This document shows, piece after piece, positions 5,734 to 20,475 of a DNA stretch of 64,000 nucleotides. A program made the translations under genes and the position numbers. Under the pieces are notes generated by a model that saw only the letters and a list, made by a program, of their open reading frames with translations, was not told the DNA's origin and did no database searches. Source of the DNA: Halorussus sp. MSC15.2 (lineage in GTDB: Archaea; Halobacteriota; Halobacteria; Halobacteriales; Haladaptataceae); NCBI RefSeq assembly GCF_010747475.1, contig NZ_VSLZ01000004.1, positions 124,001 through 188,000 of the forward strand, given 5' to 3'. Position 1 is the stretch's first letter. Every line of letters starts with the position of its first letter.

Positions 5734-6825
5734 ATGACATCGTTGTACATCGCACACACGCCGTACCACGTCGTCTTAGCGAGCGCGCTCGCTTCGGAGC
5801 ACGACGAAACGGAGGGCGACCAGCACCTGCTCGGGATTCTAGACTCGGACATGGAACCGATGCTGGAGTCGATACGAGGAGCGCACGACAACCCGTTCGA
5901 CGAGGTCCGGACGCTGGCCGGGGCGGCCACCTTCGCGTCGAGAATCGCCCACACCTCCCGATTGACGCAGGTCCGAGCGCGGTACAACTGCTTCGCGGTC
6001 CGGCGGTACGTCGCCGACAACCGCACGAACGAGGTGTACTCGTTCAACGACCAGCGACCCGAGGACCAAGCGGCGTTCGACGCGGTGACACGGGACGAAT
6101 CGCTCCGCGACGTCCGGAGGGTCTACGTCGAGGACGGCACCAGCGCGTACACCTACATGAGACGGGAGTGGAGTTGGTTCGAGACGGTGAAGATGAAACT
6201 GTTCTACGGCCGGTGGCGGACGCAGGTCGAGGAACACGGCTCTTCGAAGTGGGTGGACGAGGTCTACGGGTCGTTCCCCGACCACGTTCGGCCCGACCTC
6301 AGAACCCGTCCGGTCTCCGCGCTCCCGCGCGAGGCGGTGCTGGCGCTCGGCGACCGCTCGTGGTTCCGGCGATACTTGGAGGCGTGCCACGTCGCGGATA
6401 CGCTCGACGAACTAGACGGTGTCGTCTTCGTCGCTCTCTCGGAGGACGTGGACTTCGACGGCGAGTACGTCGAGACCATCGAGTCCGTAATCCGGCGGTT
6501 CGCCGACCGCGGCGAGCGAATCGGCGTCAAGTACCACCCGCGGGAGTCCAATGAGTTCCTGAACCTCGACGGGAGTTCTGCGGTGGTCCTCCCGCGGGGT
6601 ATCCCGGCGGAGGTCATCTTCGTCGCCAACCCCGACGGTATCCGGTTCGTCCTCGGCAACGTCTCCACGTCGCTGCTGACGGCGCGATGGTTGTGCGAGG
6701 ACGTGACGGTCCTCTCGCTGGCGCGGGTGTTCCAGAGCGACTTCGAACACCTGATTACGGTGTTCGAGTCGCTGGGGATACGCGTCACCGATAGCCTCTC
6801 GGAAGTCGCAGCGCCGCCGCGCTGA
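5734..6825 (+). CDS. Sialyltransferase-like glycosyltransferase (GT52/polysialyltransferase type)
   Basis: The product has 363 residues from an ATG at 5734, chosen because MTSLYIAHTPYHVVLA begins like a GT-B Rossmann strand, while the upstream in-frame sequence is low-quality Arg/Ser-rich. It carries the three hallmark motifs of bacterial sialyltransferases: an acidic D/E-D/E-G (VEDG, 132-135), an HP motif (KYHPRE, 266-271) and a Ser/Thr motif (GNVSTSLL, 308-315). Those motifs hold the catalytic base and bind the CMP phosphate. No membrane segment is seen. The neighbouring nonulosonic-acid genes fit an enzyme that moves a CMP-activated sialic-like sugar onto a glycan. The acceptor and exact donor are unknown, and overall similarity to characterised members is likely low. 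Confidence 0.72.
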   Translation: MTSLYIAHTPYHVVLASALASEHDETEGDQHLLGILDSDMEPMLESIRGAHDNPFDEVRTLAGAATFASRIAHTSRLTQVRARYNCFAVRRYVADNRTNEVYSFNDQRPEDQAAFDAVTRDESLRDVRRVYVEDGTSAYTYMRREWSWFETVKMKLFYGRWRTQVEEHGSSKWVDEVYGSFPDHVRPDLRTRPVSALPREAVLALGDRSWFRRYLEACHVADTLDELDGVVFVALSEDVDFDGEYVETIESVIRRFADRGERIGVKYHPRESNEFLNLDGSSAVVLPRGIPAEVIFVANPDGIRFVLGNVSTSLLTARWLCEDVTVLSLARVFQSDFEHLITVFESLGIRVTDSLSEVAAPPR

Positions 6826-6874
6826 GCTATCGGGGTCGAAACCGCACCAGCGCCCCCGAACCGGCGGGCGACGG

Positions 6875-6883
6875 ATTTTTACT
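6875..6883 (+). promoter_or_regulatory. TATA-like promoter of the DUF4910 gene
   Basis: A T-rich ATTTTTACT lies about 23-31 bp before the ATG at 6906 in otherwise GC-rich DNA, the usual geometry for a leaderless haloarchaeal transcript. Confidence 0.45.
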
Positions 6884-6905
6884 CGGGTTCGTCGTTTGTA
6901 CCGCC

Positions 6906-8090
6906 ATGGGTGACGGGGAGCCGTCGAGACTCGAATCGCGTTTCGAAGCGCTCTGGCCGATTCCGCGCAGCATCACTGGACCCGGGTTCCGGGAGAGTCT
7001 GGCGGTTCTTCGGAAGGACATCCCACTCGACGTGGAGGGGGTCCCCTCCGGGACGGCGGTCTTCGACTGGGAGATACCCCCGGAGTGGCGGATTCGCGAG
7101 GCGCGGTTGACCGGACCCGACGGCGACGTGTACGCCGACTTCGACGAGACGAACCTCGCCGTGGTGAACTACTCGGAACCGGTGGACGAACGCCGCACGC
7201 TCGACGAACTGGACCCGCACCTCCACACGTTGCCGCGACTGCCGGACGCGACCCCGTACGTGACGAGTTACTACGAACGCGACTGGGGCTTCTGTCTCCC
7301 CCACGACACGTACGAGTCGCTCCCCGAGGGCGAGTACCACGCCTACATCGACAGCGAGTTCGTGGACGGGGAACTGAACTACGGCCACGCGGTTCTGGAA
7401 GGCGAGAGCGACAGGGAAGTCCTCCTCAGTACGTACCTGTGCCACCCGTCGCTCGCCAACAACGAACTGAGCGGACCGCTCGTCCTCACGTCGCTGTACA
7501 AGCGACTCCGGGACTGGGACCGCCGGAAGTTCACCTACCGGTTCGTCGTCGTCCCGGAGACCATCGGGTCGCTGGCGTACCTCTCGCGGTACGGCGCACA
7601 CTTGCGGGAGAAGGTGGTGGGCGGTCTCGTCCTGACCTGCCTCGGCGGGCCAAACGACGACCTCTCGTACAAGCGGACGCGGCGCGGAAACGCCCTTCTC
7701 GACGAGGTCGTCCGACACCTCGACGAGTACACCGACGCCGAGTTCCGGTTCCGGACGTTCGACGCGACCGGGTCCGACGAGCGCCAGTACTGTTCGCCGG
7801 GGTTCGACCTCCCGGTGGGCCAGTTCGCTCGGACCGTTTACGACGAGTACGAGGGGTATCACAACTCCCGGGACACCAAGTCGTTCATGGGCATCGCCCC
7901 GCTCGTCGAGAGCGCCGAGACCATCGAACGCGTTCTCCGCAACTTCGAGCGAGGCGGCTACTACCTGAACCAGAACCCCCACGGAGAGCCGATGATGAGC
8001 AAACGGGACCTCTATCCGACCGTGAACGACCCCGCCGAGGCCGACGGGGTCGTCCCGACGGGTACGCCGACGGCGACCGCGACCTCGTGA
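6906..8090 (+). CDS. DUF4910 aminopeptidase-like protein, frameshifted near the C-terminus
   Basis: This frame encodes 394 residues. The protein belongs to the DUF4910/DUF2172 zinc-aminopeptidase-like family common in surface-polysaccharide loci: LLSTYLCHPSLANNELSG (about 173-190) is the family metal-binding signature, with VVPETIGSLAYL and GFDLPVGQ further on. The family normally ends in a winged-helix domain. Here this frame drifts into PTGTPTATATS and stops, while the missing winged helix is encoded directly downstream in another frame (8096-8281). One extra C in the CCC run at 8054-8056 would restore continuous reading (VVPDGYADGDRDLVTDMMR). The function in glycan loci is not established; it may hydrolyse an amide on an aminosugar precursor. 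Confidence 0.85.
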   Translation: MGDGEPSRLESRFEALWPIPRSITGPGFRESLAVLRKDIPLDVEGVPSGTAVFDWEIPPEWRIREARLTGPDGDVYADFDETNLAVVNYSEPVDERRTLDELDPHLHTLPRLPDATPYVTSYYERDWGFCLPHDTYESLPEGEYHAYIDSEFVDGELNYGHAVLEGESDREVLLSTYLCHPSLANNELSGPLVLTSLYKRLRDWDRRKFTYRFVVVPETIGSLAYLSRYGAHLREKVVGGLVLTCLGGPNDDLSYKRTRRGNALLDEVVRHLDEYTDAEFRFRTFDATGSDERQYCSPGFDLPVGQFARTVYDEYEGYHNSRDTKSFMGIAPLVESAETIERVLRNFERGGYYLNQNPHGEPMMSKRDLYPTVNDPAEADGVVPTGTPTATATS

Positions 8091-8095
8091 CCGAC

Positions 8096-8281
8096 ATGAT
8101 GCGACTCCTCACCTACAGCGACGGGAGCCACTCGGTCGTCGAGATAGCCGAGCGATACGACGCGTCCGTGGAGACGCTCGCCGGTCCGCTCGACCGACTG
8201 CGCGAGGTCGGACTGCTGGAACCCGCCGCGTACACGCCCGACCACTCCGACCGGTTCGATTTACCGGCAGAGGAGCGCTAA
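8096..8281 (+). CDS. Winged-helix C-terminal piece of the DUF4910 protein
   Basis: From ATG 8096 this frame encodes 61 residues (MMRLLTYSDGSHSVVEIAER ... LLEPAAY), a small winged-helix domain that normally closes DUF4910 proteins. It begins 5 bp after the stop of the main frame, and its TAA overlaps the ATG of the next gene (TAATG at 8279-8283). I read it as the displaced end of the upstream gene rather than an independent gene, although a genuine split gene is possible. Confidence 0.7.
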   Translation: MMRLLTYSDGSHSVVEIAERYDASVETLAGPLDRLREVGLLEPAAYTPDHSDRFDLPAEER

Positions 8282-9303
8282 TGGCGCATCTCGCTATCCG
8301 AGCGGACGGCGGTCCGGACATCGGGTACGGACACCTGATTCGGACCGGCGCGCTCGCCGAACGCGTCCTCTCGCGGGGCCACGCGGTCACGTACGCCACG
8401 ACCACGCCCGAGTCCGTCCGGAACGTCTGTCCCGACCCCGTCGAAGTCGCCGAACTCCCGGCGCGCGACGACCCCGCTCCGTTCGTCCGGTGGCTCGATA
8501 CCGCGAACCCGGACGTGGCGTTCACCGACGCCTATCCGGTGGACACGGCGTATCAGCGCCGGGTCCGAGAGGCGGTGCCGCTGGTCGTCACGCAGGACGA
8601 CGACCGACACGCCGTCTGTGCGGACGTGTTCGTGAACGGGAACCTCGACGCCGTTGAGCGCGAGTACACGTTCGTCGGTTCGGCCCCGGAGTTGCGTCTC
8701 GGGACCGACTACGTCCTCCTCCGGAGCGAGATTACGGAACGCGCCCGCCGCGAACCCCCGTGGCGAGAGACGCCCGAGCGCGCCGTCGTCACGATGGGCG
8801 GGAGCGACACGGCCGACCTGACGCCGACCGTCGTCCGCGCGTTCGACGGACTCGACCTCCGCGTGGACGCCGTCGTCGGGCCGGGGTTCTCCGAGAGGCA
8901 AGCGGTGGCAGTCGAGAACGCCGCCGCCGACGTGTCGGCCGACGTGACGGTCCGCCGCGACCCCGACGACTTGGCGGACCGACTGTTCCGGGCCGACTTC
9001 GCGGTGAGTACGGCGAGTAGCACCACGTACGAACTGCTCGCGCTGGGGACGCCCATCGTCTGCGCGCCAGTCGTGGACAATCAGGAGTCGATAGCCGACG
9101 AACTCGACCGGCGGGACGCCGCGACGGTCCTCGGCCGCGATGCCGACGGGGAACGCTTCGTTCGGGGGATAGCGGAGTACGCGTCGAATCCGGACCTCCG
9201 GCGAGAGCGGCGTGAGCGCGGCCGCGAACTCGTGGACGGCCGCGGTTCCGAACGCGTCTGTCGAGAAGTACTCTCGCTGGCGGACGGGGAGTCGGACGCC
9301 TGA
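8281..9303 (+). CDS. pseG: PseG-like UDP-sugar hydrolase (nonulosonic acid pathway)
   Basis: The product has 340 residues. The N-terminus has RADGGPDIGYGHLIRTGALA, the PseG/SpsG signature in which the histidine of GxGH (His18 here) is the catalytic base in Campylobacter PseG. MGGSD at 172-176 matches the nucleotide-binding FGGSD of this GT-B-like family. Family members remove UDP from 2,4-diacetamido-trideoxyhexoses to give the free sugar used by the NeuB-type synthase. The gene overlaps the DUF4910 winged-helix fragment by one base, so the two are probably co-translated. The synthase it should serve lies convergently 29 bp away. SpsG of spore-coat loci is the closest alternative label. Confidence 0.82.
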   Translation: MAHLAIRADGGPDIGYGHLIRTGALAERVLSRGHAVTYATTTPESVRNVCPDPVEVAELPARDDPAPFVRWLDTANPDVAFTDAYPVDTAYQRRVREAVPLVVTQDDDRHAVCADVFVNGNLDAVEREYTFVGSAPELRLGTDYVLLRSEITERARREPPWRETPERAVVTMGGSDTADLTPTVVRAFDGLDLRVDAVVGPGFSERQAVAVENAAADVSADVTVRRDPDDLADRLFRADFAVSTASSTTYELLALGTPIVCAPVVDNQESIADELDRRDAATVLGRDADGERFVRGIAEYASNPDLRRERRERGRELVDGRGSERVCREVLSLADGESDA

Positions 9304-9332
9304 GCAGAGAGTCGGACGTCTGAGGCGGATTC

Positions 9333-10382
9333 CTACTCGTTCACGTCGTCCCACTGGATACCGTCGCCCTTCGAGATGTCCCGGGCCGCGGTGCGTCCCA
9401 CGATGTCGTCGTAGTGTTTCGGTTCGACGCCCGCCTCTCGTTCGCCGGGGCGAAGCACCTTCACGGCGTCCGAGGTGATGGTTTCGTCGGCGGCGATGTC
9501 CCGCGTCGCGTGGACGGCGCGCCGGGCCTTCTCGTGGAGTTCTCGTTCGACGTCTAACACGGTCTTCTCTCCCGACCCGAGCGCCAACTCCGTGTCGCGA
9601 ATCGCCGTCACCATCTCGGCGAGTTCGTCGGGTTCGAGCGCGAACTCGTGGTCCGGTCCTTCCATCGTCTTGTCGAGCGTGAGGTGTTTCTCGACGACGC
9701 TCGCGCCGAGGGCGACGGCGGCGGACGGCGCGACCACGGGGTCGAGCGTGTGGTCGGAGAGACCGGTCGGAACGTCGAACTCTCGGGCGAGCGTCTCGAC
9801 TACCCCGACGTTGGCCTCGTGAATCGGCGTGGGGTAGGAGGCGACGCACTGGAGGAGCGCGAGGTCGGTCGCGCCCGCGTCCCGAAGGACCTCGACCGAC
9901 TCGCGCACCTCCGACAGTTCGTGCGCGCCGGTGGACAGGATAATCGGCTTGTCGGTGTCGGCGAGGTGGCGGAGGAACGGGTGGTGGCTGCTCGTGTAAC
10001 TCGCCACCTTCCACGCGGGCACGTACTCCGCGAGTTCCGCCGCGGACCGCTCGTCGAAGGGCGTAGAGAGGAACTGGACCCCGCGCTCCCGGCAGTAGTC
10101 GTGGAGTTCCGGAATCCACTCGTAGGGCATCTCCATCGCCTCGACGATGTCGTAGATGGAGTCGTCGTCGTTCAGGTACTCGACCTCGCCGCTGTCCTCG
10201 ACGTAGAGGTCCTCAGCCCGGAACGTCTGGAACTTCACGGCGTCGGCCCCGGCGTCGGCGGCGACGTCTATCAACTCCTCGGCGGTGTCGAGGTCCCCGT
10301 TGTGGTTCGACCCGGCTTCCGCGATTACGTACGTCGGCTCACCCGGCCCGATGGGCCGCCCCCCGATGCTGAACCCGTCCAT
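9333..10382 (-). CDS. neuB: NeuB/PseI-type nonulosonic acid synthase
   Basis: The product has 349 residues. It is an N-acetylneuraminate synthase family enzyme: an N-terminal TIM barrel (YVIAEAGSNHNGDLDTA at about 19-35, VKFQTF, GLSDHTLD, VEKHLTLD) followed by a SAF/antifreeze-like domain from about residue 285 (RDIAADETITSDAVKVLRPG). The enzyme condenses a 6-carbon amino sugar with phosphoenolpyruvate to make a nine-carbon sialic, pseudaminic or legionaminic acid. The PseG- and PseC-like neighbours favour a 5,7-diamino nonulosonate over plain sialic acid, but sequence alone does not decide. An AGTTTTAACC box 24-33 bp upstream gives it its own leaderless promoter. Confidence 0.92.
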   Translation of the reverse strand: MDGFSIGGRPIGPGEPTYVIAEAGSNHNGDLDTAEELIDVAADAGADAVKFQTFRAEDLYVEDSGEVEYLNDDDSIYDIVEAMEMPYEWIPELHDYCRERGVQFLSTPFDERSAAELAEYVPAWKVASYTSSHHPFLRHLADTDKPIILSTGAHELSEVRESVEVLRDAGATDLALLQCVASYPTPIHEANVGVVETLAREFDVPTGLSDHTLDPVVAPSAAVALGASVVEKHLTLDKTMEGPDHEFALEPDELAEMVTAIRDTELALGSGEKTVLDVERELHEKARRAVHATRDIAADETITSDAVKVLRPGEREAGVEPKHYDDIVGRTAARDISKGDGIQWDDVNE

Positions 10383-10405
10383 AGGTCACGTACCGACGGC
10401 GCGTC

Positions 10406-10417
10406 GGTTAAAACTAG
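10406..10417 (-). promoter_or_regulatory. TATA-like promoter of the nonulosonate synthase gene
   Basis: The minus strand reads CTAGTTTTAACC in GC-rich surroundings, 24-35 bp ahead of the ATG at 10382. It allows separate transcription from the aminotransferase gene that ends just upstream. Confidence 0.5.
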
Positions 10418-10427
10418 CCGCTACCCC

Positions 10428-11615
10428 TCATCGGTAGTGTCGGTGAAGCCGCGTCACGGCGCGAACGACGTCGTCTACGTCGCCGTCGTCCATCCCCGGG
10501 AACAGCGGTAGCGAGACGAGTCGCTCGTAGACCGTCTCGGTCTCGGGGAACTGTCCGCGCTCGTAGCCGTACTCCTCCTGAAAGAACGGGTGGTAGTGGA
10601 GCGGCACGTAGTGGACCTGCACGTAGACGTTCTCCTCGTGCATCGCGTCGACGAACTCCTCGCGCGAACACCCGAACGCCTCGCCGATTTCGACGGCGTA
10701 GAGGTGTAACATCGGGTCCACGTCCTCGCGGACGACCGGGGTCCGCAGTCCGGGAATTTCCTCGAAGGCTTCGTCGTAGCGGGCCGTAATCTCCTGCCGA
10801 CGGCGTTTGAACTCCTCCAGTCGGTCCACCTGCACGACGCCGAGCGCCGCCTGCATGTCGGTGACGTTGTAGTTGTAGCCCAGTCCCGTGGCCACCTGAT
10901 ACCACGGTTCATCCTCGTGACCGTCGGGTTCGTAGTCCATGTCGAACGAGCGAAGCGACCGGAGACGCCCGGCCAGCGCGTCGTCGTCCGTGACGACCAT
11001 CCCGCCCTCGCCGGTCGTGATGTTCTTGACCGGGTGGAAACTGAAGACCGCCATGTCGCGCTCCGCGCCGACCGGTCTCCCCTCGACTCGCGTCCCGAAC
11101 GCGTGGCTGGCGTCCCAGATGACGGTCAGGTCGTGTTCGTCCGCCACGTCGAGCAGCGCGTCGATGTCGCAGGGGTGACCGCCGTAATGCATCGGGACCA
11201 GTCCCTTCGTGTCGTCGGTTATCGCGTCCCGAACCGCGTCCGGGTCGAGGGTCCGGAGTTCCGGGTCGATGTCCGCCAGCACGGGGTCGGCACCGGTGTG
11301 GCACGCGGGATAGGCGGAGGCAACGAACGTCAGGGGCGTCGTGATAACCTCGTCGCCCGCGCCGAACCCCGCGGCCCGTCCGGCCAACTGGAGCGCGGTC
11401 GTGCCGGAGGTGGTCGCCACGGCGTGTTCGACGCCGACGAACTCCGCGACCGTCTCCTCGAACTCGTCCACTCTCGGCCCGCGGGTGATGTAGTCGGATT
11501 CGAGCGCCTCGACGACTGCCTCCTTCTCCCGTTCGCCGATGCTCTGCCCGCCGTACCCGAGGGGTTCAGTTCGAACCGGCTCGCCGCCGCGAATCGCCGG
11601 CGTCTCGTCGGTCAT
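10428..11615 (-). CDS. PseC-like DegT/DnrJ/EryC1 sugar aminotransferase
   Basis: The product has 395 residues. This is a PLP aminotransferase that acts on 4-keto nucleotide sugars: TSGTTALQLA near 69-78 for phosphate binding, DASHAFGT at 168-175, and the lysine motif FSFHPVKNITTGEGG with the PLP lysine at about 197. FSFHPVK.ITTGEGG is the form typical of PseC, which makes UDP-4-amino-4,6-dideoxy-N-acetyl-altrosamine, although other 4-aminosugar enzymes share it. It follows the epimerase gene with a 4-bp ATGA overlap, so the two are translationally coupled. It is predicted to use the product of the dehydratase at 12807. Confidence 0.88.
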   Translation of the reverse strand: MTDETPAIRGGEPVRTEPLGYGGQSIGEREKEAVVEALESDYITRGPRVDEFEETVAEFVGVEHAVATTSGTTALQLAGRAAGFGAGDEVITTPLTFVASAYPACHTGADPVLADIDPELRTLDPDAVRDAITDDTKGLVPMHYGGHPCDIDALLDVADEHDLTVIWDASHAFGTRVEGRPVGAERDMAVFSFHPVKNITTGEGGMVVTDDDALAGRLRSLRSFDMDYEPDGHEDEPWYQVATGLGYNYNVTDMQAALGVVQVDRLEEFKRRRQEITARYDEAFEEIPGLRTPVVREDVDPMLHLYAVEIGEAFGCSREEFVDAMHEENVYVQVHYVPLHYHPFFQEEYGYERGQFPETETVYERLVSLPLFPGMDDGDVDDVVRAVTRLHRHYR

Positions 11616-12565
11616 GACGCGCCCTCACGCTCCCGGAGCCAGTCGCGGAGTCGTTCGACACCCTCCTCCAGCGACACCTCCGGCGTCCACCCGAGCAGCT
11701 CCTCGGCCTTGCCGGCGTCGCACCGGAGTCGCTGGACCTCGCTCTGGGGATGGTGGTGTTCGACGTGCGTTATCTCGGTCCCCTCCGAGGCGACGACCGC
11801 CGCGAGGTCGTTGATGGAGATGTCGGTCCCGGTACCCGCGTTGATGACCTCGCCCGTCGCCTCGTCGCTGAAGGCGGCCTCGATGATGAACCGCGCGCAG
11901 TCAGTGCAGTAGAGCAGGTCGCGCGTCTGGGTGCCGTCCCCGAAAATCTTCAGCGGTTCCCCCGAGAGGTCGCGGTCCACGAAGATGGAGACGACGCCGC
12001 CCGCCATCCCGGTCTTCTGGTACGGACCGTAGGTGTTGAACGGCCGGACGACGGTCACCGGCAGGTCGAACCCGTGGTAGTAGGACTCGGCTATCTCCTC
12101 GGCCGCCAGTTTCGTGCCGGCGTACGGCGAGTTCGGGTCTGTCGGATGGTCCTCGTCTATCCCGCCGTCCGACGACGCCACGTCGTAGACCATGCACGTC
12201 CCGACGAGCGTCAGCGGGGTGTCGGTCCGTTTGCACGCCGTGAGGACGTTCTGGGTCCCGACGACGTTCGTGTCGAAGTGCGCCTCCGGGTTCTGCAGGC
12301 TGTCTTCTACGTCTATCAGCGCCGCGAGGTGAATGCACTTGTCGATAGTGTCATCGAAGAGCGTCTCCACGTCACCGACGTCTCGAACGTCTCCTTCGAC
12401 GAGTTCGAAGTGCGGGTCCGAGCGAAACTCCCGGACGTTTCGGCGCGACCCGTTCGACAGATTGTCGAGACCGCGAACGCGATAGCCCCGTTCCAGCAAC
12501 CCGTGGACGACCCACCTCCCGATGAACCCCGCCGCTCCGGTCACGGCGACAGTATTCGTTGCCAT
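11612..12565 (-). CDS. NAD-dependent epimerase/dehydratase (extended SDR)
   Basis: The product has 317 residues. It has the N-terminal Rossmann motif TGAAGFIG (9-16), HLAALIDV near 79-86, the active-site YAGTK (Tyr148, Lys152), and RPFNTYGP at 174-181, the pattern of UDP-glucose/GlcNAc 4-epimerases and 4,6-dehydratases. The serine/threonine before the catalytic pair reads GTCMVYD. It is first in a two-gene unit with the PseC-like aminotransferase. It could epimerise a UDP-HexNAc or make a 4-keto intermediate. Legionaminic- and pseudaminic-type pathways need only one dehydratase, so this one may serve another glycan sugar. A TTTCATTA box at 12591-12598 is 26-33 bp upstream. Confidence 0.85.
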   Translation of the reverse strand: MATNTVAVTGAAGFIGRWVVHGLLERGYRVRGLDNLSNGSRRNVREFRSDPHFELVEGDVRDVGDVETLFDDTIDKCIHLAALIDVEDSLQNPEAHFDTNVVGTQNVLTACKRTDTPLTLVGTCMVYDVASSDGGIDEDHPTDPNSPYAGTKLAAEEIAESYYHGFDLPVTVVRPFNTYGPYQKTGMAGGVVSIFVDRDLSGEPLKIFGDGTQTRDLLYCTDCARFIIEAAFSDEATGEVINAGTGTDISINDLAAVVASEGTEITHVEHHHPQSEVQRLRCDAGKAEELLGWTPEVSLEEGVERLRDWLREREGAS

Positions 12566-12590
12566 CGCTGTACGACCACCACTTCCTCGC

Positions 12591-12806: not shown

Positions 12807-13823
12807 GTGATAGAGAATCAAAACGTGCTCGTAACCGGCGGGGCGGGGTCGGTCGGCCGGTCGCTGGTTCCGCCGCTCCTCGCGAAGGACCCCAACGTGA
12901 TTCGGTTGTTCGACAGCAACGAGAGCGGTCTGGTGCAGGCCGACCGCGAGTTCAACGACGAGCGCCTCCGGTATCTCCTCGGCAACATCCGGGAGCGGCC
13001 GCGGCTAGCCAGAGCGATGGAGGACATCGACGTCGTCATCCACACCGCCGGAATCAAACACGTGGACATCTCCGAGTACAACCCCTTCGAGGCGGTGAAG
13101 ACCAACGTCCTCGGTCTCCAGAACGTCGTCGAGACGGCCACCGAAGCGGGGGTTGACCGGGTCGTCTTCACGAGCAGCGACAAGGCGGTCACTCCGGCGA
13201 ACACCATGGGAACGTCGAAGCTACTCGGGGAGAAACTCACCACGGCCGGGAACAAGTACCGCGGGTCGTCGGACCTCCGGTTGACGTCGGTCCGCTTCGG
13301 GAACGTCATCAACTCCTCGCGGTCGGTCGTTCCGGTGTTCGAAGAGCAGATTCGGAACGGGGGTCCGGTGACCCTGACTGACGAACGGATGACGCGGTTC
13401 TTCCTGACCTACGGCGACGTGGCCGACCTGATTACGACGGCGATAGAGAAGACCGGCGGCGGCGAAGTCTTCGTCCGGAAGATGCCCGCCGTCCGCATCG
13501 AGGACTTGGCCGAGACCATGATAGACACGCTGGCGGAGAAGTACGGGCACCGCCCCGCGGACATCGACATCGAACTCATCGGCCGGCGGGTCGGCGAGAC
13601 GCTCCACGAGGAGATAATGACCGAGCGCGAGGTCGAACGGACTGTGGAGAACGACGAGTACTACGCGATACAACCCGAGACCACCGAGAAGAATCGGTTC
13701 CTCGAATACGACGGTCTCCCCGATTTCAGTCCCGCGGAGGGCATCGTGCGCTCGTCGAAGCGCGCGGAGAAGATAGACCGCGAGGAGATAGAGCAGATGG
13801 TACTCGACTCTGTCGGCGACTGA
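12807..13823 (+). CDS. CapD/PseB-like UDP-GlcNAc 4,6-dehydratase (short form)
   Basis: The product has 338 residues from a GTG at 12807. It has the Rossmann motif TGGAGSVG (10-17), HTAGIKHVDISEYNPFEAVKTN (about 79-100, a stretch diagnostic of the polysaccharide-biosynthesis CapD/FlaA1/PseB family), SSDKA at 123-127 and the active-site MGTSK (Met134, Lys138), where Met replaces the SDR tyrosine as in FlaA1/WbpM. It lacks the N-terminal membrane region of WbpM. It is predicted to convert UDP-GlcNAc to a 4-keto-6-deoxy sugar, the first step before the PseC-like aminotransferase on the other strand. An AATAACAAAG box lies 34-43 bp upstream. Confidence 0.85.
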   Translation: MIENQNVLVTGGAGSVGRSLVPPLLAKDPNVIRLFDSNESGLVQADREFNDERLRYLLGNIRERPRLARAMEDIDVVIHTAGIKHVDISEYNPFEAVKTNVLGLQNVVETATEAGVDRVVFTSSDKAVTPANTMGTSKLLGEKLTTAGNKYRGSSDLRLTSVRFGNVINSSRSVVPVFEEQIRNGGPVTLTDERMTRFFLTYGDVADLITTAIEKTGGGEVFVRKMPAVRIEDLAETMIDTLAEKYGHRPADIDIELIGRRVGETLHEEIMTEREVERTVENDEYYAIQPETTEKNRFLEYDGLPDFSPAEGIVRSSKRAEKIDREEIEQMVLDSVGD

Positions 13824-13888
13824 TTCGCGGCCGGTCGGTCAGGTATTGGACCACGAGAGACCCGGATACCCGAGTTCGTTCCGACGGT

Positions 13889-14971
13889 CTATCCGCCGGT
13901 TTCGAGATACTCGGCGTACCGCTCGACCTTCTCGGTGTACTCCTCTCTGAACAGGTCTCCGTCGTAGTACTTCTCGCCCCGCGAGAGCGGCCGGGTGGTC
14001 CCGCCGACGCCGCGTTTGAACTGACTGATGTTGACCTCTTTGTCCGAAGCGAGGTGGGGGAACGTCCGGTCGAAGAACTGCCACCCCGGTTCGTAGGTGT
14101 CGAGACCCCGCTCGACCATCCACTTCATCGCCTCCCACTGGAGCAGGTGCCCGATTCCGAGGTCGTAGGTGTCCGAGTCGGGGTCGCGAGCGGACGAGGC
14201 GTAGTAGACCCCGCCGTCGTACGCGAGGAAGTACGAGAATCCGACGTACTCCCCCTCGTACTTCGCTCCGACGAGGAATGCCTCGTCCGCCGTAATCCAG
14301 TCGTACATCATCTCGAACGTCTCGTCGGGTCTGGTCTGTCCCCCCGCGTCCTTGATGTGACACTGTTTGTACTGGTCGTGTATCGATTCGGTGACGTTCT
14401 CGCTGTCGAACACGGTTGCTTCGAAGGTGTCCGCGGCGTCGTCGATGGACCGCCGGTAGTCCCTGCGGAGGTCGGCCCTGATGTCGTCGATATCCCTGTC
14501 GAGGTCCACCAGTTGCGTGTGTATCGAGGTATCGACGAACCCGTGTCGGACGAGGTAGTTGTAGCTCTCCGTCCCGGTGGGTGTTTCCTCCGCGAGCGAC
14601 GGATGTTGCATCTTGACCCGCTGTACACCGTGTTCGGCGGCGCGCTCGTCCACCTCGTCGAATATCATCCCCTCGATGGTGTCGCGCTCGCCCTCCGAGA
14701 GGTCGGCGGAGAAGGCGGGCGTCGGCCCGTATCCCCCGGCGTAGGTGAACTGCCTCACGCCGTCCACCGTCTCCAGAATCAGCGGACAGACGGCGATTAT
14801 CTCCTTGCTGTGGGTCACCATAAACGACTCCGAGGCGGGGTCGAACTCGGGCTTGTAGTTCAGAGTGTAGTCGAGCCAGTCGGTCGTGTGTCGGAACCAC
14901 GCGTCGGGACTCTCCCGACAGAACTCGTCCCACTCCGAGCGCCACTCGGCTGAGAGGTCCCTGACGTTCAT
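13889..14971 (-). CDS. FemAB/GNAT-like acyltransferase
   Basis: The product has 360 residues and is soluble. The N-terminal half has WFRHTTDWLDY and TYAGGYGPTPAFS; the C-terminal half has EYVGFSYFLAYDGGVYY, YDLGIGHLLQWEAMKWM and FKRGVGG, the pattern of the BioF2-like/FemAB branch of the GNAT superfamily often found in exopolysaccharide clusters. Such proteins transfer acyl or aminoacyl groups to amino sugars. In a nonulosonate pathway an N-acyltransferase is required after the aminotransferase, and no PseH/LegH-like gene is otherwise seen here, so it is a candidate for that step. That assignment is inference. The gene stands alone, convergent with the dehydratase gene 65 bp away. Confidence 0.72.
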   Translation of the reverse strand: MNVRDLSAEWRSEWDEFCRESPDAWFRHTTDWLDYTLNYKPEFDPASESFMVTHSKEIIAVCPLILETVDGVRQFTYAGGYGPTPAFSADLSEGERDTIEGMIFDEVDERAAEHGVQRVKMQHPSLAEETPTGTESYNYLVRHGFVDTSIHTQLVDLDRDIDDIRADLRRDYRRSIDDAADTFEATVFDSENVTESIHDQYKQCHIKDAGGQTRPDETFEMMYDWITADEAFLVGAKYEGEYVGFSYFLAYDGGVYYASSARDPDSDTYDLGIGHLLQWEAMKWMVERGLDTYEPGWQFFDRTFPHLASDKEVNISQFKRGVGGTTRPLSRGEKYYDGDLFREEYTEKVERYAEYLETGG

Positions 14972-15252
14972 ACTCGACGGCGACCCCCACCGCGGCGCGT
15001 CCGCTGCCCCACCGTCCCGGCGCTACGCCCCTCACTACCCCCCACAGGATATGCTGTGTAACTCATACTTCTTCGTCTGTTACCCCCTCAACGGAGGCGG
15101 TAATAAAACTCCACCTCGGTTTTGCGGGCGGGACTCGACCAACGAAGACTCGACCGGCGACGTGGACGCTCGGGGTCGCTATCGGGCCGCGAGACGACGT
15201 GAGCGACCACCGTCCCCAAAGGACTACGTGGAGAGGACCGTACAGGGACTGA

Positions 15253-15945
15253 ATGTCCGACGCGACCGAATACGCCGACGCCAATCGGGAGTATTGGGAG
15301 GAGAAGGAGTACACTCGACCGAACGTGGACCACGACGTGTTCCGGTTCTACGGTCTCGTCCTCGGTCCGGACTTCGGCTACTGGGGGGACGACGGCGAGC
15401 GACTCCTCGACTTCGGCTGCGGGCAGGCGGCGTCTACGAACTTCTTCCACGAACACGGGTTCGACGTGTACGGCGTAGACGTGAGCGAGTCCGAACTCGA
15501 CACCGCCCAAGAGCGGTATCCGGACATCGCGGACCGGTTCCGGACCGTCGACCCCGAACCGAGCGCTTCGGACGAGTTCTTCGGCGGCGGGTTCGACGTG
15601 ATAATCGCGCTCCAGTCGCTCTACTACTACAGCGACAGCGACCTGAACACGCGACTCCGGTCCCTGTACCGGAATCTGAACGACGGCGGCGTCCTCTACG
15701 CGACGATGTGCGGCGACAGACACGGTCTCTACTCCCACTCGGAACCCGCCTCGGACGGTCTCCGGAAAGTGACGCTCCCGGAGGCGGACAACCCGGTCTA
15801 CGTGAACTTCACGGAGAGCGAGGACGACCTGCGCGACACGTTCGACATGTTCGACCCCGTCCACGTCGGATTCTACAACTATCGGTTCCGCAACGACAGC
15901 GGGGAGAGCTTCCACTACACGTTCGTCGGGCAGAAGTCGGCCTGA
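15253..15945 (+). CDS. SAM-dependent methyltransferase (class I)
   Basis: The product has 230 residues. Motif I is LLDFGCGQAASTNFF (about 54-68), followed by DVYGVDVSESELDTA (motif II acidic residue) and FDVIIALQSLYYY (motif IV/post I). No membrane segment or signal peptide is present. The position inside the glycan locus suggests O- or N-methylation of a sugar, but the family has very broad substrates. It is a single gene, convergent with the sulfatase-fold gene. The intergenic region to the left carries GGTAATAAAAC about 140 bp upstream, too far for a leaderless promoter. Confidence 0.82.
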   Translation: MSDATEYADANREYWEEKEYTRPNVDHDVFRFYGLVLGPDFGYWGDDGERLLDFGCGQAASTNFFHEHGFDVYGVDVSESELDTAQERYPDIADRFRTVDPEPSASDEFFGGGFDVIIALQSLYYYSDSDLNTRLRSLYRNLNDGGVLYATMCGDRHGLYSHSEPASDGLRKVTLPEADNPVYVNFTESEDDLRDTFDMFDPVHVGFYNYRFRNDSGESFHYTFVGQKSA

Positions 15946-15987
15946 CGACCGGACTGGTCGGCCCGAGATACGGTATCGACCAGACGG

Positions 15988-16953
15988 TCACAGATACCCG
16001 AGCGCGGCCAGTTGGTCGTCGGTCACCTCGGTCGTCCGGTCGCGTTCCTCCGGCGGGTCGGCCCGAATCTCCCGCCGTTCGTCGGTTGGTAACTCGAACC
16101 ACGGCACTGAGACCAGATTCCCGTAGTGGACGAACGGTTCGTGGCCGTAGAGTCTGGCGGGAATCGGACGCGTCCGCTCGCCGAACAGTTCGCCGTGGTC
16201 CGCGGTTATCACCGTCTTCCCGTCGAGGTTCGACGCGAGTCGCTCCGCCTCGTCCAGCGCTATCTCCAGATTCTCCCGGTAGGCCTTCTTCACCATCTCG
16301 ACGTCGAGGGGGTGGTTGGGGTCCCAAACGACCTCCTCCATCCACCTCGCTCCGGCCACCTCCTTTCCGCCGAGGTATTCTGACTGGAGGTACTGGCCGT
16401 ACTCCCCGATGAACGGGGCGTGAGGCTGCATGTAGTGGACGACGAGGCGCTTGTTCGGGAACTCCTCGTGTGCGGCGATAGCCTCCTCGGTCATCTTGTC
16501 CGGGCGAATCGCTCTGAACGTGTCGTAGGCCTCCAACAGGGAGTTGACGCTGTGGAACGTCCCCTCGGACAGTTCCCTGACGTACGGGTTCGCCGTCACG
16601 TACACCGTGTCGTGGAGTTCCCTCCCCTCGAAATTCCGGTGGACGAACTCGATGCTGTGGGAAGCGCCCGACCTGACGCGGTGTAAGTCACCGTCGAGCC
16701 AGTTCGTCTGGGTGAACACGTCGTATCGCGTGGCGTCCAAGATGACGAGCGTGTCCCAGTCGGCGGCCATCACGTCGAGCGCGTCCGAGTCGTCCACGTA
16801 CCGGTAGTAGAGTTTGTTCAGATTCACGCCGAGACTGTTGAGTTCGCGACGGACGGCCCACGGCTTGTGGACGGCGGTCTTGAGACTCCCCAAGTCGTAC
16901 TTCTCGAATCTCTCCCGCACCCACCGCGAGAACGTGAACTTCTCTATCCCCAT
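15988..16953 (-). CDS. Sulfatase/alkaline-phosphatase-fold protein
   Basis: The product has 321 residues from the ATG at 16953, chosen because MGIEKFTFSRW is preceded by a TATA-like CATAATA 28-37 bp upstream and by unconserved sequence in the longer frame. Motifs of the alkaline phosphatase superfamily are visible: LVILDATRYDVF near 69-80 (first metal aspartate and nucleophile region), VVHYMQPHAPF in the middle, and TVITADHGELFGE in the C-terminal half (second metal site). No signal peptide is seen, so it probably acts in the cytosol. Similar proteins recur in haloarchaeal surface-glycan loci, where they may handle sulfated or phosphorylated sugars. The substrate is unknown. Confidence 0.8.
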   Translation of the reverse strand: MGIEKFTFSRWVRERFEKYDLGSLKTAVHKPWAVRRELNSLGVNLNKLYYRYVDDSDALDVMAADWDTLVILDATRYDVFTQTNWLDGDLHRVRSGASHSIEFVHRNFEGRELHDTVYVTANPYVRELSEGTFHSVNSLLEAYDTFRAIRPDKMTEEAIAAHEEFPNKRLVVHYMQPHAPFIGEYGQYLQSEYLGGKEVAGARWMEEVVWDPNHPLDVEMVKKAYRENLEIALDEAERLASNLDGKTVITADHGELFGERTRPIPARLYGHEPFVHYGNLVSVPWFELPTDERREIRADPPEERDRTTEVTDDQLAALGYL

Positions 16954-16980
16954 TTCCGCTACTGTAGATGACCTTCTTCC

Positions 16981-16990
16981 TATTATGCGT
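16981..16990 (-). promoter_or_regulatory. TATA-like promoter of the sulfatase-fold gene
   Basis: The minus strand reads ACGCATAATA at 28-37 bp before the ATG at 16953, in a local AT-rich patch. Confidence 0.5.
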
Positions 16991-17120
16991 TTGCCCGGTC
17001 GAAGTTCGTGGGAGAAAACCGGTAGAAAACGTAGGGGTGTCGAGATTCCCGCCCGAATCGTCGAAGTCCGACTGCCGACTCGTCGTCTCAGGTATCGAGG
17101 TTCTGCTCGCCCGCGCAAGC

Positions 17121-17128
17121 TATTACTT
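17121..17128 (+). promoter_or_regulatory. TATA-like element ahead of the oxidoreductase gene
   Basis: TATTACTT lies 28-35 bp before an ATG at 17156 and about 100 bp before the oxidoreductase ATG at 17224. The predicted transcript would start almost at the short upstream reading frame. Confidence 0.4.
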
Positions 17129-17155
17129 GATGGCGGGCATATCGGTGCGTCGGCA

Positions 17156-17227
17156 ATGAACGGGAGTACATCGGGTCGTGTCGGCACGAGAGGCACGCTG
17201 GCGTCTATCGCCGACGGCGAACGATGA
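17156..17227 (+). CDS. Possible 23-codon upstream reading frame
   Basis: An ATG at 17156 opens a 23-residue frame (MNGSTSGRVGTRGTLASIAD...) whose TGA overlaps the ATG of the oxidoreductase gene as ATGA. It would be read almost from the 5' end of the predicted transcript, so translation of the main gene could depend on it by coupling. It is too short to judge by codon use, and a chance frame is a real alternative. Confidence 0.3.
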   Translation: MNGSTSGRVGTRGTLASIADGER

Positions 17228-18240
17228 ACGGACCGCCTGCCGGGGACGAGTGTTCCTCGGCACTGATAGTGGGGTGCGGGTCCATCGGGTCGCGTCACGC
17301 GCGGAATCTGTCCGAACTGGGTCTTGAACTCTCCGTGTTCGACCTCGACGAGGCGCGCCAGACGCGTCTCGCGTCCGAGGTGGACGCGTCCGCACCGAGT
17401 TCGCTGGACGCCGCGCTGCAGACCCGACCGGACGTGACCGTCGTCGCCACGCCGTCGAACCACCACGTGGAACCCGCTCTGGCGGCCGCCCGGGCGGGGT
17501 CGCACCTGTTCGTCGAGAAACCGCTGTCGAACGACACCGAGGGAGTCGGCGAACTCCTCGACGTCGTCCGGGACCGGGACCTCGTGACGATGGTCGGGTC
17601 GAACTTCCGGTTCCACCCGGCAATCGAGACGATTCGCGAACTTGTGACCGACGGACGCGTCGGGAACGTCGTCTCGGCCCGCATCGAGGCGGGGTCGTAC
17701 CTCCCGGAGTGGCACCCCGAGGAGGACTACCGGGACCTCTACTCCGCGAAGGAAGGGGTCGGCGGAGCGGTGCTGGACTTCGTCCACGAGCTAAATTACG
17801 CTCGATGGCTGTTCGGCGAGGCGGAGGCGGTCACGGCGATGCTCGGCCGGGAGAGTTCGCTGGAGATAGAGACCGAGGACACCGCGAGCATCGTCGCTCG
17901 GTTCGAGGACGGCACGCTCTGCGAGATTCACCTCGACTTCGTCCAGCGCGCGTACAGTCGGTCGTGTCACGTCATCGGCGAGCGCGGGACCGTCAGGTGG
18001 GAGTGGGAGGAGTCGGCGGTCCGACGCTACGACTCCCGGCGGGAGTCGTGGGTCGAGGAAGCGGCGTGGGGCGACGACTGGGAGGTGAACCGGATGTACC
18101 GCGACGAGATGGAACACTTCCTCCGGTGCGCGGCGGAGCACCGCGAGACGCGGACGCCGCTGACCGAGGGCCGTGCCGACCTCGAACTGGCGCTCGCGGC
18201 GAAGGAGTCGGCGGCGACCGGTCGGCACGTCCGACTGTGA
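17224..18240 (+). CDS. Gfo/Idh/MocA-family sugar oxidoreductase
   Basis: The product has 338 residues. The N-terminal Rossmann motif is LIVGCGSIGSRHARNL (about 14-29), followed by VVATPSNHHVEPALAA and VEKPLSND (about 98-105, with the EKP lysine typical of the family). The C-terminal alpha/beta domain has the substrate-site GGAVLDFVHELNYARWL. The enzyme uses NAD(P) to oxidise or reduce a sugar hydroxyl. It is the first of three co-directional genes with the cytidylyltransferase and the class III aminotransferase (gaps 98 and 49 bp), so it may make the keto group that the aminotransferase then aminates. That pairing is inference. Confidence 0.88.
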   Translation: MNGPPAGDECSSALIVGCGSIGSRHARNLSELGLELSVFDLDEARQTRLASEVDASAPSSLDAALQTRPDVTVVATPSNHHVEPALAAARAGSHLFVEKPLSNDTEGVGELLDVVRDRDLVTMVGSNFRFHPAIETIRELVTDGRVGNVVSARIEAGSYLPEWHPEEDYRDLYSAKEGVGGAVLDFVHELNYARWLFGEAEAVTAMLGRESSLEIETEDTASIVARFEDGTLCEIHLDFVQRAYSRSCHVIGERGTVRWEWEESAVRRYDSRRESWVEEAAWGDDWEVNRMYRDEMEHFLRCAAEHRETRTPLTEGRADLELALAAKESAATGRHVRL

Positions 18241-18338
18241 GGTGACGTCGGAGGCGAATCCTGCGCGTCGGTTCCGGTCACGCTGATGGGGGACCGTACG
18301 CTGCGAATACTCAAGGGGCGCTACGTCGTGGTACCGAC

Positions 18339-19082
18339 ATGCGAGAGAGGACCGTCGCAATCGTCCAAGCGCGGATGGGTTCGACTCGCCTCCCCGAGAA
18401 GGTTCTGGCGGACATCGGCGACGAACCGATGCTGTGGCACGTCCACGAGCGAGCGCGGAGCGCGTCACTCGTGGACGACGTGGTCGTCGCCACGTCCACG
18501 GAGTCGCAAGACGACGCCGTCGCGGAGTTCTGCGAGGACCGCGGTATCACGTACCACCGGGGGAGCGAGGAGGACGTGCTGGACCGCTACTACGAGGCGG
18601 CGACCCGGAACGACGCCGACGTCGTCGTCCGCATCACGGCCGACTGTCCGTTCCTGTCGCCGCCCGTAATCGACCGGGTCGTCCGGACGTACGAGAACGG
18701 CGACGCCGACTACGTGACCAACACGCTGGAGTACACCCACCCGGACGGACTCGACGTCGAGGTGTTCGGGTACGAAGCGCTCGAACGCGCGTGGAACGAG
18801 GCCGACGACCCGGCGGAGCGCGAACACGTCACCTACTACCTGCGCGAGTCCGACGAGTTCAGTTCGCGGAACGTCGAGAACGTACTGGACACGTCGATGT
18901 ACGAGTTCACCGACGAGGACACGATTCTCCGATGGACGGTGGATTATCCGGCGGACTTGGAGTTCGTTCGGGCGGTGTACGACCGCCTGACAGAACGCGG
19001 TCACTGGCTGTTCGACCAGCAGTCGGTCTTCGAACTGCTCGAACGCGAACCGGCGCTGCGTGAGGTCAACGAGGACCGCTGA
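18339..19082 (+). CDS. SpsF-like cytidylyltransferase
   Basis: The product has 247 residues. The N-terminus has VAIVQARMGSTRLPEKVL (about 6-23), the nucleotide-binding loop of the SpsF/NeuA/KdsB cytidylyltransferase family, followed by VVVRITADCPFLSPPVID near 92-109 with the metal-binding aspartate. NeuA-like members activate nonulosonic acids as CMP-sugars; SpsF itself is the spore-coat member. With NeuB- and PseG-like genes in the same locus, this is the best candidate for the CMP-nonulosonate synthetase that would feed the sialyltransferase-like enzyme. It lies between an oxidoreductase and an aminotransferase gene on the same strand. Confidence 0.85.
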   Translation: MRERTVAIVQARMGSTRLPEKVLADIGDEPMLWHVHERARSASLVDDVVVATSTESQDDAVAEFCEDRGITYHRGSEEDVLDRYYEAATRNDADVVVRITADCPFLSPPVIDRVVRTYENGDADYVTNTLEYTHPDGLDVEVFGYEALERAWNEADDPAEREHVTYYLRESDEFSSRNVENVLDTSMYEFTDEDTILRWTVDYPADLEFVRAVYDRLTERGHWLFDQQSVFELLEREPALREVNEDR

Positions 19083-19100
19083 CCCGGTTCCGGCACGAAC

Positions 19101-19110
19101 AGTTATTAGG
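19101..19110 (+). promoter_or_regulatory. TATA-like promoter of the class III aminotransferase gene
   Basis: AGTTATTAGG lies 22-31 bp before the ATG at 19132, suggesting a leaderless transcript separate from the upstream genes. Confidence 0.45.
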
Positions 19111-19131
19111 AGCATTGTCGATACTGACGGT

Positions 19132-20475
19132 ATGCCTGACCGGTCTGATAGCTCGGGGAGTCGCGCTCGCCGCGAGAAGACTCACGAGCGCTACGAACGC
19201 GCGAAGGAACTCATCCCCGGCGGGACCCAACTCCTCTCGAAGCGGGCGGAGATGATGGCTCCCGACCAGTGGCCCGCCTACTACAGCGAGGCCGAGGGGG
19301 CGCGCGTCACCGACTTGGACGGGAACGAGTACGTCGATATGAGTTTCATGGGTATCGGAGCGTGCGTCCTCGGGTACGGAGACGAAGACGTGGACGCCAG
19401 CGCCAGACGGGCCATCGACGAGGGGGTGATGGCCACGCTGAACTGCCCGCAGGAGGTAGAACTCGCCGAGGAACTCGTGAAGATGCACCCGTGGGCCGAC
19501 ATGGTCCGGTTCGGCCGACCGGGCGGGGAGGCGATGGCGATGGCGGTCCGACTGGCGCGGGCGTACTCGGGCGAGGAGACCGTGGCGTTCTGCGGCTATC
19601 ACGGCTGGCACGACTGGTACCTCGCGGCGAATCTGGAGACCGACGAGAACCTCGAAGGCCACCTGCTGCCGGGTCTCGACCCGAACGGCGTCCCCGAGAG
19701 CCTCGAAGGGACGAGCAAACCGTTCCACTACAACGAAATCGAGGAACTGGTACGCATCGCACGCGAGAACGACCTCGGCGCGATAGTGATGGAACCGATA
19801 CGGAACGAGGAACCCCGAGACGGCTTTCTGGAGCGCGTCAGGGAAATCGCAGACGAGGAAGACGCTCCGCTCGTGGTGGACGAGATTACGTCGGGCTTCC
19901 GGGCCACTCCCGGCGGCTACCACGCCGCGCTGGACCTCGACCCCGACGTCGCCGTCTACGGGAAGGCGATGGGGAACGGCTATCCCATCGCGGCGGTCGT
20001 CGGCCGCGAGCGCGTGATGGACGAGGCCGAGGAGAGTTTCCTGAGCAGCACGTACTGGACCGAACGCGTCGGGCCGAGCGCCGCCCTCGCCACGCTCCGG
20101 AAGTTCCGCTCGGAGAACGTCCACGACCACCTCGTGAGCATCGGCGAGCAGGTCACCAGCGGATGGGAGGACCTCGCCGAGGACCACGGCGTCGAGATAG
20201 CGACCAAGGGATTGGCCCCGCTCACGAAGTTCGTCGTGAAACACGACGAGGGGCAGGCGGCCAAGACCCTGTTCACGCAGGAGATGCTCGACCGCGGATA
20301 CCTCGCGGGGAACGCCATCTACACGAGTTACGCGCACACCGAACCGATGGTCGAAGCGTATCTGGACGCGGCGGACGACGCGTTCGCGTCGGTGGCAACC
20401 GCGCTGGAGGAGGGGAGCGTCCGCGAACGACTGAACGGACCGGTAGCTCACACCAAGTTCGAGCGACTGAACTGA
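19132..20475 (+). CDS. Class III PLP aminotransferase (glutamate-1-semialdehyde aminomutase-like)
   Basis: The product has 447 residues from the ATG at 19132, which follows a TATA-like box and begins MPDRSDSSGSRARREK before the conserved RAKELIPGGTQLLSKR. The fold is that of GSA aminomutase: DLDGNEYVDMSF, FGRPGGEAMAMAVRLA, GYHGWHDWY, VVDEITSGFR, and the PLP lysine in YGKAMGNGYP (Lys278). HemL for haem synthesis would normally sit elsewhere and carry GSEA in place of GGEA. Its company with a cytidylyltransferase and a sugar oxidoreductase suggests it aminates a keto-sugar or a keto-nonulosonate. Comparable gene sets occur in bacterial glycan loci; the product is not predictable. Confidence 0.85.
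   Translation: MPDRSDSSGSRARREKTHERYERAKELIPGGTQLLSKRAEMMAPDQWPAYYSEAEGARVTDLDGNEYVDMSFMGIGACVLGYGDEDVDASARRAIDEGVMATLNCPQEVELAEELVKMHPWADMVRFGRPGGEAMAMAVRLARAYSGEETVAFCGYHGWHDWYLAANLETDENLEGHLLPGLDPNGVPESLEGTSKPFHYNEIEELVRIARENDLGAIVMEPIRNEEPRDGFLERVREIADEEDAPLVVDEITSGFRATPGGYHAALDLDPDVAVYGKAMGNGYPIAAVVGRERVMDEAEESFLSSTYWTERVGPSAALATLRKFRSENVHDHLVSIGEQVTSGWEDLAEDHGVEIATKGLAPLTKFVVKHDEGQAAKTLFTQEMLDRGYLAGNAIYTSYAHTEPMVEAYLDAADDAFASVATALEEGSVRERLNGPVAHTKFERLN

Follow-up and report, generated by a model that had tools for sequence, protein, structure and literature searches.

Here, we describe a predicted nonulosonate (NulO) locus in a 64,000-nucleotide stretch of DNA from the haloarchaeon Halorussus sp. 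MSC15.2 (contig NZ_VSLZ01000004.1, positions 124,001 to 188,000; this whole stretch is called the window below). The locus comprises 13 intact genes at 5734-20475 according to open reading frame (ORF) calls, and probably encodes a Pen/Pal-type pathway for a NulO activated with cytidine monophosphate (CMP), together with a transferase of its own. An earlier reading made from the letters alone (the sequence-only reading) had named six genes whose products could together synthesize a nine-carbon acid, activate it and transfer it to an acceptor. All six are open, full-length ORFs at the positions assigned to them, and profile searches placed them in the expected families (PF07388, PseG-like, NeuB, DegT/PseC-like, Polysacc_synt_2/PseB-like and CTP_transf_3). 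The joint function proposed for them is supported by these profiles, by the predicted fold of the transferase and by the gene neighborhood. A Pal-like short-chain dehydrogenase/reductase (SDR), a FemX-like GNAT protein, a DUF4910 protein, a Gfo/Idh oxidoreductase and a class III aminotransferase had not been named in that reading.

In the proposed pathway, the Pen-like enzyme (12807-13823) would dehydrate UDP-N-acetylglucosamine (UDP-GlcNAc), and the Pal-like enzyme (11612-12565) would then yield UDP-4-keto-6-deoxy-L-N-acetylaltrosamine, which would be aminated by the PseC-like enzyme (10428-11615). N-acylation of the aminated sugar would follow, with the product of 13889-14971 as the candidate, after which the PseG-like hydrolase (8281-9303) would free the acylated sugar from UDP, the NeuB-type synthase (9333-10382) would condense it with phosphoenolpyruvate (PEP), and SpsF (18339-19082) would activate the nine-carbon acid with CTP. 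Finally, the PF07388 glycosyltransferase (5734-6825) would move the acid, most likely of pseudaminic type, onto a surface glycan. Tailoring of the sugar is the probable role of three further genes, which encode the Gfo/Idh oxidoreductase, the class III aminotransferase and the methyltransferase. Family matches cover each of these steps save a clear acyl step; the C4 aminotransferase, UDP-sugar hydrolase, PEP-condensing synthase and cytidylyltransferase are assigned at the level of the family. It is from these gene families, the predicted transferase fold and the conserved neighborhood that we infer the substrates, stereochemistry, acyl group and acceptor. The genes of the proposed core are as follows.

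5734-6825, + strand: polysialyltransferase-family (PF07388) glycosyltransferase, probable NulO transferase; PF07388 47.2 bits against a Pfam cut-off of 23.3; motifs EDG at 133, KYHP at 266 and ST at 311
8281-9303, + strand: PseG/SpsG-like UDP-sugar hydrolase; TIGR03590 145.6 bits, slightly below the cut-off of 153.55
9333-10382, - strand: NeuB/PseI/SpsE-type NulO synthase with SAF domain; PF03102 286 bits, PF08666 50 bits
10428-11615, - strand: PseC-like DegT aminotransferase; PF01041 399.5 bits, TIGR03588 385.8 bits against a cut-off of 423.5; lysine 197 presumed from the motif to bind pyridoxal phosphate (PLP)
11612-12565, - strand: Pal-like SDR, putative second step of a Pen/Pal route; 6bwl_A 'Pal' 336.5 bits
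12807-13823, + strand: Pen/PseB-like UDP-GlcNAc dehydratase; PF02719 (Polysacc_synt_2) 298.5 bits, PseB model 290 against a cut-off of 407.75
13889-14971, - strand: FemX/GNAT-like acyltransferase, N-acyl candidate; PF13480 43 bits
18339-19082, + strand: SpsF-like CMP-NulO cytidylyltransferase; PF02348 (CTP_transf_3) 134.6 bits

Pen- and Pal-like enzymes

Among solved structures, the SDR matched 6bwl ('Pal') at 336.5 bits, with the runner-up at 162.8 bits, and the two proteins share the stretch TCMVYD. The dehydratase matched 6bwc at 248.9 bits and 2gn4, a UDP-GlcNAc C6 dehydratase, at 206.9 bits. We take 6bwc and 6bwl to be Pen and Pal of Bacillus thuringiensis, the paper on which is cited in PMC8987622, and 2gn4 to be FlaA1/PseB of Helicobacter pylori. 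Pen and Pal have been described as jointly performing the PseB step (PMC5109656, PMC7439481), and the first step of the present locus likewise looks to be divided between a Pen-like and a Pal-like enzyme. Because the SDR matches Pal and the dehydratase lies nearer to 6bwc, the locus resembles a Pen/Pal pathway, and this resemblance makes a pseudaminic-type sugar more likely than a legionaminic-type one. Legionaminic acid (Leg) as the default product was set aside on the Pal match and is retained as a rival explanation below.

The PF07388 transferase

An AlphaFold model of the 5734-6825 product, built from nine archaeal sequences, reached a mean pLDDT of 81.6 and a pTM of 0.85 and has a GT-B fold like that of the solved polysialyltransferase. 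Modelling of this protein had been suggested by the sequence-only reading, and it returned a bacterial polysialyltransferase as the best match: VIA-align placed 5wc6 and 5wcn at the top (Z 22.3 and 22.2; 17-18% identity), with the top alignment covering 318 residues at a root-mean-square deviation (rmsd) of 4.7. The next entry was 8ahe (Z 19.9), whose title names no protein, followed by UDP-GlcNAc 2-epimerases from Z 19.6 downward; Foldseek also ranked the polysialyltransferases first by E-value. We assume that 5wc6 and 5wcn belong to CAZy family GT38. The motifs E-D-G, K-Y-H-P-R-E and S-T are invariant among the seven closer archaeal proteins, and K-x-H-P-R-E and S-T are kept in all nine proteins aligned, of which one distant member has D-E-G and another no such motif at that position. 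The family presumably has an S motif in addition to the D/E-D/E-G and HP motifs. The latter two are used here as given in PMC5811610 and PMC7439481. Taken together, the protein is a probable NulO transferase, and its donor is probably not N-acetylneuraminic acid.

A matching archaeal sialyltransferase had been thought to be undescribed. This holds in so far as no functional study of one was found in the literature searched (open-licence papers only). As to sequences, the orthologue in H. aquaticus carries the NCBI label 'alpha-2,8-polysialyltransferase family protein', PF07388 also has matches in M. jannaschii and M. acetivorans, and a GT29 sequence from an archaeon has already been published (PMC5811610).

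Distribution in haloarchaea and bacteria

The same gene set recurs in distant haloarchaea, and it is therefore not a product of chance. Loci of Natronorubrum, Natronomonas and Halostagnicola contain the core again (transferase, SpsF, PseG, NeuB, PseC, Pal and Pen), at identities of 57-75% for NeuB, 71% for PseC, 69-72% for Pal and 63-64% for Pen. In a class sample of 391 Halobacteria genomes, NeuB matches occur in 78 and PseG matches in 38 (three of them weak), and PseG lies within 10 kb of NeuB in 33 of the 38. A Pal-like protein, counted at E <= 1e-90, is present in 29 of the 391; its gene is at most 5.3 kb from neuB in all 29 and at most 10 kb from a PseG match in 24. PseG was not matched in three of the genomes with Pal, and Pal was not matched in nine of the 35 genomes in which the PseG match is strong.

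PF07388 matches were found in seven of these genomes, every one of them among the 78 with NeuB (hypergeometric 1e-5, or 5e-5 when genome G172 is left out). With three further Halorussus genomes added to the seven, the PF07388 gene is at most 17.3 kb from neuB in all 10 loci, one match being weak. Half of these loci are of the PseG type (the window, H. aquaticus, Natronorubrum sulfidifaciens, Natronomonas sp. CBA1123 and Halostagnicola sp. A-GB9-2) and half have a NeuC-like gene (G058, G172, G366, H. caseinilyticus and H. salinisoli). Since the family occurs near neuB in both types, it appears to track nonulosonates rather than one pathway.

The PF07388-NeuB link is looser in bacteria than in haloarchaea. 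In a scan of genome contigs, relatives of the transferase turned up in 10 bacterial genomes. Within at most 10 kb on either side of the relative, three of these loci have a NeuB match and one more has only a NeuA-like gene. The most complete locus is a 14 kb contig of Halanaerobium saccharolyticum, in which PseB-, PseC-, SpsF-, NeuB-, formyltransferase- and PseG-like genes accompany a member of this transferase family. Thiomicrospira sp. WB1 has two PF07388-type matches in tandem (locus L064, 10001-12204).

The acyl step

The sequence-only reading had remarked that the N-acyltransferase step was not obvious, and we agree: the FemX/GNAT-like protein of 13889-14971 is the only candidate for an N-acyl enzyme in the locus. 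Its matches to FemX are weak (E 0.011), and its model, from an alignment of two rows only, has a pLDDT of 45.6. In related loci with a PseG-type core, from three further archaeal genera, an acyl enzyme is encoded between PseG and NeuB: in Natronorubrum and Halostagnicola it is a hexapeptide/LpxD-like acyltransferase, and in Natronomonas it is a formyltransferase that matches PF00551 and PF18216. The H. caseinilyticus locus also contains a formyltransferase gene. Halorubrum is known to have legionaminic acid in N-formylated form (PMC6137143).

Remaining genes and the aminotransferase unit

The other genes of the locus, and one flanking gene, are listed here.

3817-5118, - strand: GT2 family glycosyltransferase, in the left flank of the putatively exchanged cassette; PF00535 86.9 bits; 83% identity to the H. 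caseinilyticus flank
6906-8090, + strand: DUF4910/DUF2172 putative peptidase-like protein; PF16254 279 bits, PF09940 109 bits; sole PDB match 3k9t, 'putative peptidase', 317 bits
15253-15945, + strand: S-adenosylmethionine-dependent methyltransferase, possible sugar methylation; PF08242 49 bits
15988-16953, - strand: uncharacterized protein, no Pfam family above cut-off, sulfatase-like by eye only; 25% identity to a protein of the G366 locus
17224-18240, + strand: Gfo/Idh/MocA oxidoreductase, gene 1 of a three-gene unit; PF22725, PF02894, PF01408
19132-20475, + strand: class III (glutamate-1-semialdehyde aminomutase-like) aminotransferase; PF00202 140 bits, NF004856 251.8 bits, below cut-off; presumed PLP lysine 278

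The putative peptidase gene sits between the transferase and PseG genes, and an 'aminopeptidase' is also entered in the Legionella serogroup 12 table of PMC3694923. Just beyond the locus, a tRNA-Pro (cgg) called by ARAGORN at 20640-20734 overlaps a DUF1616-type gene of the opposite strand; this tRNA is probably spurious.

Together with SpsF, the Gfo/Idh oxidoreductase and the class III aminotransferase are encoded in a unit that has counterparts in bacteria. Among 274 genomes from the class of the Thiomicrospira genome G409 (Gammaproteobacteria), relatives of the aminotransferase (E <= 1e-60) occur in 11, with identities of 50-52% in four of them and of 35-40% in the other seven. SpsF is in the same locus in all 11, adjoins the aminotransferase in 10 and shares a single open frame with it in seven; an aldo/keto reductase lies immediately upstream in eight (seven by Pfam, one by similarity), and the remaining three loci gave no aldo/keto reductase match. 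NeuB is present in nine of the 11 loci, and the contigs of the other two end nearby. A further relative, at 52% identity and fused to SpsF, is found on a Pseudosulfitobacter plasmid. In gammaproteobacterial and roseobacter NulO clusters (L099-L109; L056, 12530-14563), SpsF is joined to a class III aminotransferase by fusion or as its neighbor, in most cases downstream of an aldo/keto reductase. The upstream gene of the window unit belongs to a different oxidoreductase family, and among the haloarchaeal loci compared it is common to the window and H. aquaticus only. In a Vibrio cluster with an SpsF-aldo/keto reductase fusion, a diacetyl-pseudaminic acid mass is reported (PMC7371886), which argues for an ordinary product in Vibrio.

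The unit might oxidize a hydroxyl of the acid, either free or bound to CMP, and replace it with an amino group (at C8, for instance). The outcome would be a so far undescribed amino-nonulosonate for the PF07388 enzyme to attach; we consider this quite unlikely. Our search found no literature coupling 'triamino' with 'nonulosonic'. On other haloarchaeal plasmids, relatives of the aminotransferase show 34-37% identity among the matches listed, and two neighborhoods viewed list neither neuB nor a cytidylyltransferase, so the aminotransferase class alone is no marker. Around the SpsF of a Halopiger plasmid, no further pathway gene was seen within the 12 kb viewed. The Methylomagnum plasmid NZ_AP019784.1 (L083, 5223-11668) carries consecutive genes for an SpsF-like protein, a transketolase pair, a class III aminotransferase, an SDR, a NeuB-family protein and a HAD hydrolase, possibly another ulosonate pathway. 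In a tree of SpsF, four archaeal proteins form one clade excluding the window SpsF (support 97/99). In the approximately unbiased (AU) test, a constraint that unites all archaeal SpsF narrowly escapes rejection (p-AU 0.056), and a grouping of the window SpsF with the aminotransferase-linked bacterial SpsF is not rejected (p-AU 0.266). SpsF is a possible bacterial replacement within an archaeal pathway.

Genomic setting

The window lies on a contig of 405,066 bases. The proteins of the locus share 91-98% identity with their counterparts on a Halorussus aquaticus plasmid of 434,135 bases, and on this ground the contig could likewise be a plasmid. Compared with an H. caseinilyticus plasmid (window 3817-20475 against NZ_CP119810.1, 338856-359528), identities are 73-83% for proteins of the left flank and 62-82% for those of the right; between the flanks, the window has a PseG-type set and H. 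caseinilyticus a NeuC-type set with a formyltransferase. The two transferases are 49% identical and occupy different places in the left flank. This suggests that whole cassettes, of PseG type and of NeuC type, may have replaced one another between conserved flanks at a single plasmid locus in Halorussus, with retention of the transferase family, which would be similar to O-antigen switching in bacteria.

Alternative explanations

Several observations speak against a Pen/Pal-type pathway with its own transferase and have to be weighed together with the alternatives. All NCBIfam equivalog scores of the locus proteins are below their curated cut-offs, and profile models hence do not settle the substrates. 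The synthase scores 357 on the NeuB model and 314 on the PseI model, and its closest PDB sequence is 1vli, SpsE (291.6 bits), which belongs to a pathway shown to yield legionaminic acid (PMC7439481). The product could thus be of legionaminic type, made by a UDP-linked route like that of Bacillus subtilis sps in which the Pal-like SDR would feed a D-gluco 4-keto sugar, an explanation that we regard as possible but somewhat unlikely. SpsM, SpsC, SpsD, SpsG, SpsE and SpsF represent the same enzyme classes, and pen and pal together rescued Leg in an spsM mutant, according to PMC7439481; Leg is also known in haloarchaea (PMC6137143). However, SpsM is presented in PMC7439481 as the first enzyme of the sps pathway with no Pal partner described there, neuB is a neighbor of each of the 29 Pal-like genes in the class sample, and the dehydratase, aminotransferase and hydrolase of the window score highest on pseudaminic acid (Pse) models.

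As for the transferase, its Pfam match is strongest over the C-terminal part only, several epimerases align to its model at lower rmsd (though at lower Z) than the polysialyltransferases, and their Foldseek TM-scores equal those of the polysialyltransferases, so the fold alone is not decisive. A NeuB-family match is present in six of the 10 bacterial genomes with relatives, one being weak, and was absent from the other four that were searched (a Sulfuricurvum metagenome-assembled genome, Arenimonas, Coralloluteibacterium and Pseudofulvimonas). The G172 match is weak, and that protein has no PF07388 match in a full-protein scan. It is therefore worth considering that the protein is a GT-B glycosyltransferase for a different donor and that another enzyme attaches the nonulosonate. 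In line with this, phmmer against solved structures found no sialyltransferase or other relative, returning two unrelated chains at E 0.4-0.5, and of the 35 haloarchaeal genomes in which PseG matched strongly, only four also have a PF07388 match, so that the rest must use other transferases. Nevertheless, the proximity to neuB in all 10 haloarchaeal loci across both pathway types, the CDP with which the matched structure 5wcn was solved, and the conserved EDG, HP and S-T motifs make a different donor unlikely. As for the acyl slot, the gap between PseG and NeuB in the window is 29 bases, leaving this slot empty, and nothing in the window matches the formyltransferase, hexapeptide enzyme, NeuC- or NeuA-like proteins of the relatives. 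A genome search for PF18216 (N_formyltrans_C) matched nothing, nor did it match any control genome. Given these points and a contig that may be a plasmid, the cluster could be decayed or unexpressed plasmid cargo that lacks an acyl step and hence a final product, but this is very improbable, considering that every ORF is intact and that protein identity to the H. aquaticus set is 91-98%, with the GNAT gene retained in both.

Comparison with known systems

Li and colleagues reportedly described in 2015 a CMP-pseudaminic acid pathway of Bacillus thuringiensis that comprises Pen, Pal and five further enzymes. The Halorussus locus resembles it in the Pen- and Pal-like steps, the DegT aminotransferase, the PseG-type hydrolase, the PseI/SpsE-type synthase and the cytidylyltransferase, but it is archaeal, lacks a clear 4-N-acetyltransferase, and has a Gfo/Idh oxidoreductase, a class III aminotransferase, a methyltransferase and a PF07388 transferase in addition. 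We therefore regard this haloarchaeal Pen/Pal-like pathway with a predicted polysialyltransferase-family enzyme as a variant of a known pathway type. Earlier archaeal surveys, such as that of Kandiba and Eichler in 2013, which PMC6137143 cites, may have seen parts of this locus type. What the locus adds is a small, testable transferase family linked to neuB in haloarchaea and a second (Pen/Pal-like) haloarchaeal route in 29 of the 391 sampled genomes, and the recurrent oxidoreductase-SpsF-aminotransferase unit may indicate undescribed sugars.

With B. subtilis sps, the locus shares a UDP-linked route, SpsE as the nearest solved synthase, and SpsF- and SpsG-like steps, whereas the first step is SpsM there and a Pal-like gene stands in the core here (PMC7439481). 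The same source gives B. subtilis as having no GT38, GT42, GT52 or GT80 enzyme, and states that reports of a bacterial Leg transferase were lacking as of 2020. The haloarchaeon Halorubrum sp. PV6 likewise makes a nonulosonate, Leg, through a NeuB-type synthase and activates it with CMP. Its pathway, however, belongs to the NeuC type: LegG is a NeuC-type and LegF a NeuA-type enzyme, and the acid transferase is unassigned in PMC6137143. In the Halorussus locus, none of the 14 proteins scanned matched PF02350, the family of a NeuC-type hydrolyzing 2-epimerase, and no NeuC match was detected in the window. Judged by table entries in PMC3694923, the O-antigen cluster of Legionella pneumophila serogroups 6/12 shares PseG, a GSA-like aminotransferase, a cytidylyltransferase, DegT, CapD, NeuB, a methyltransferase and an aminopeptidase with the Halorussus locus, and has an aldo/keto reductase in place of the Gfo/Idh protein.

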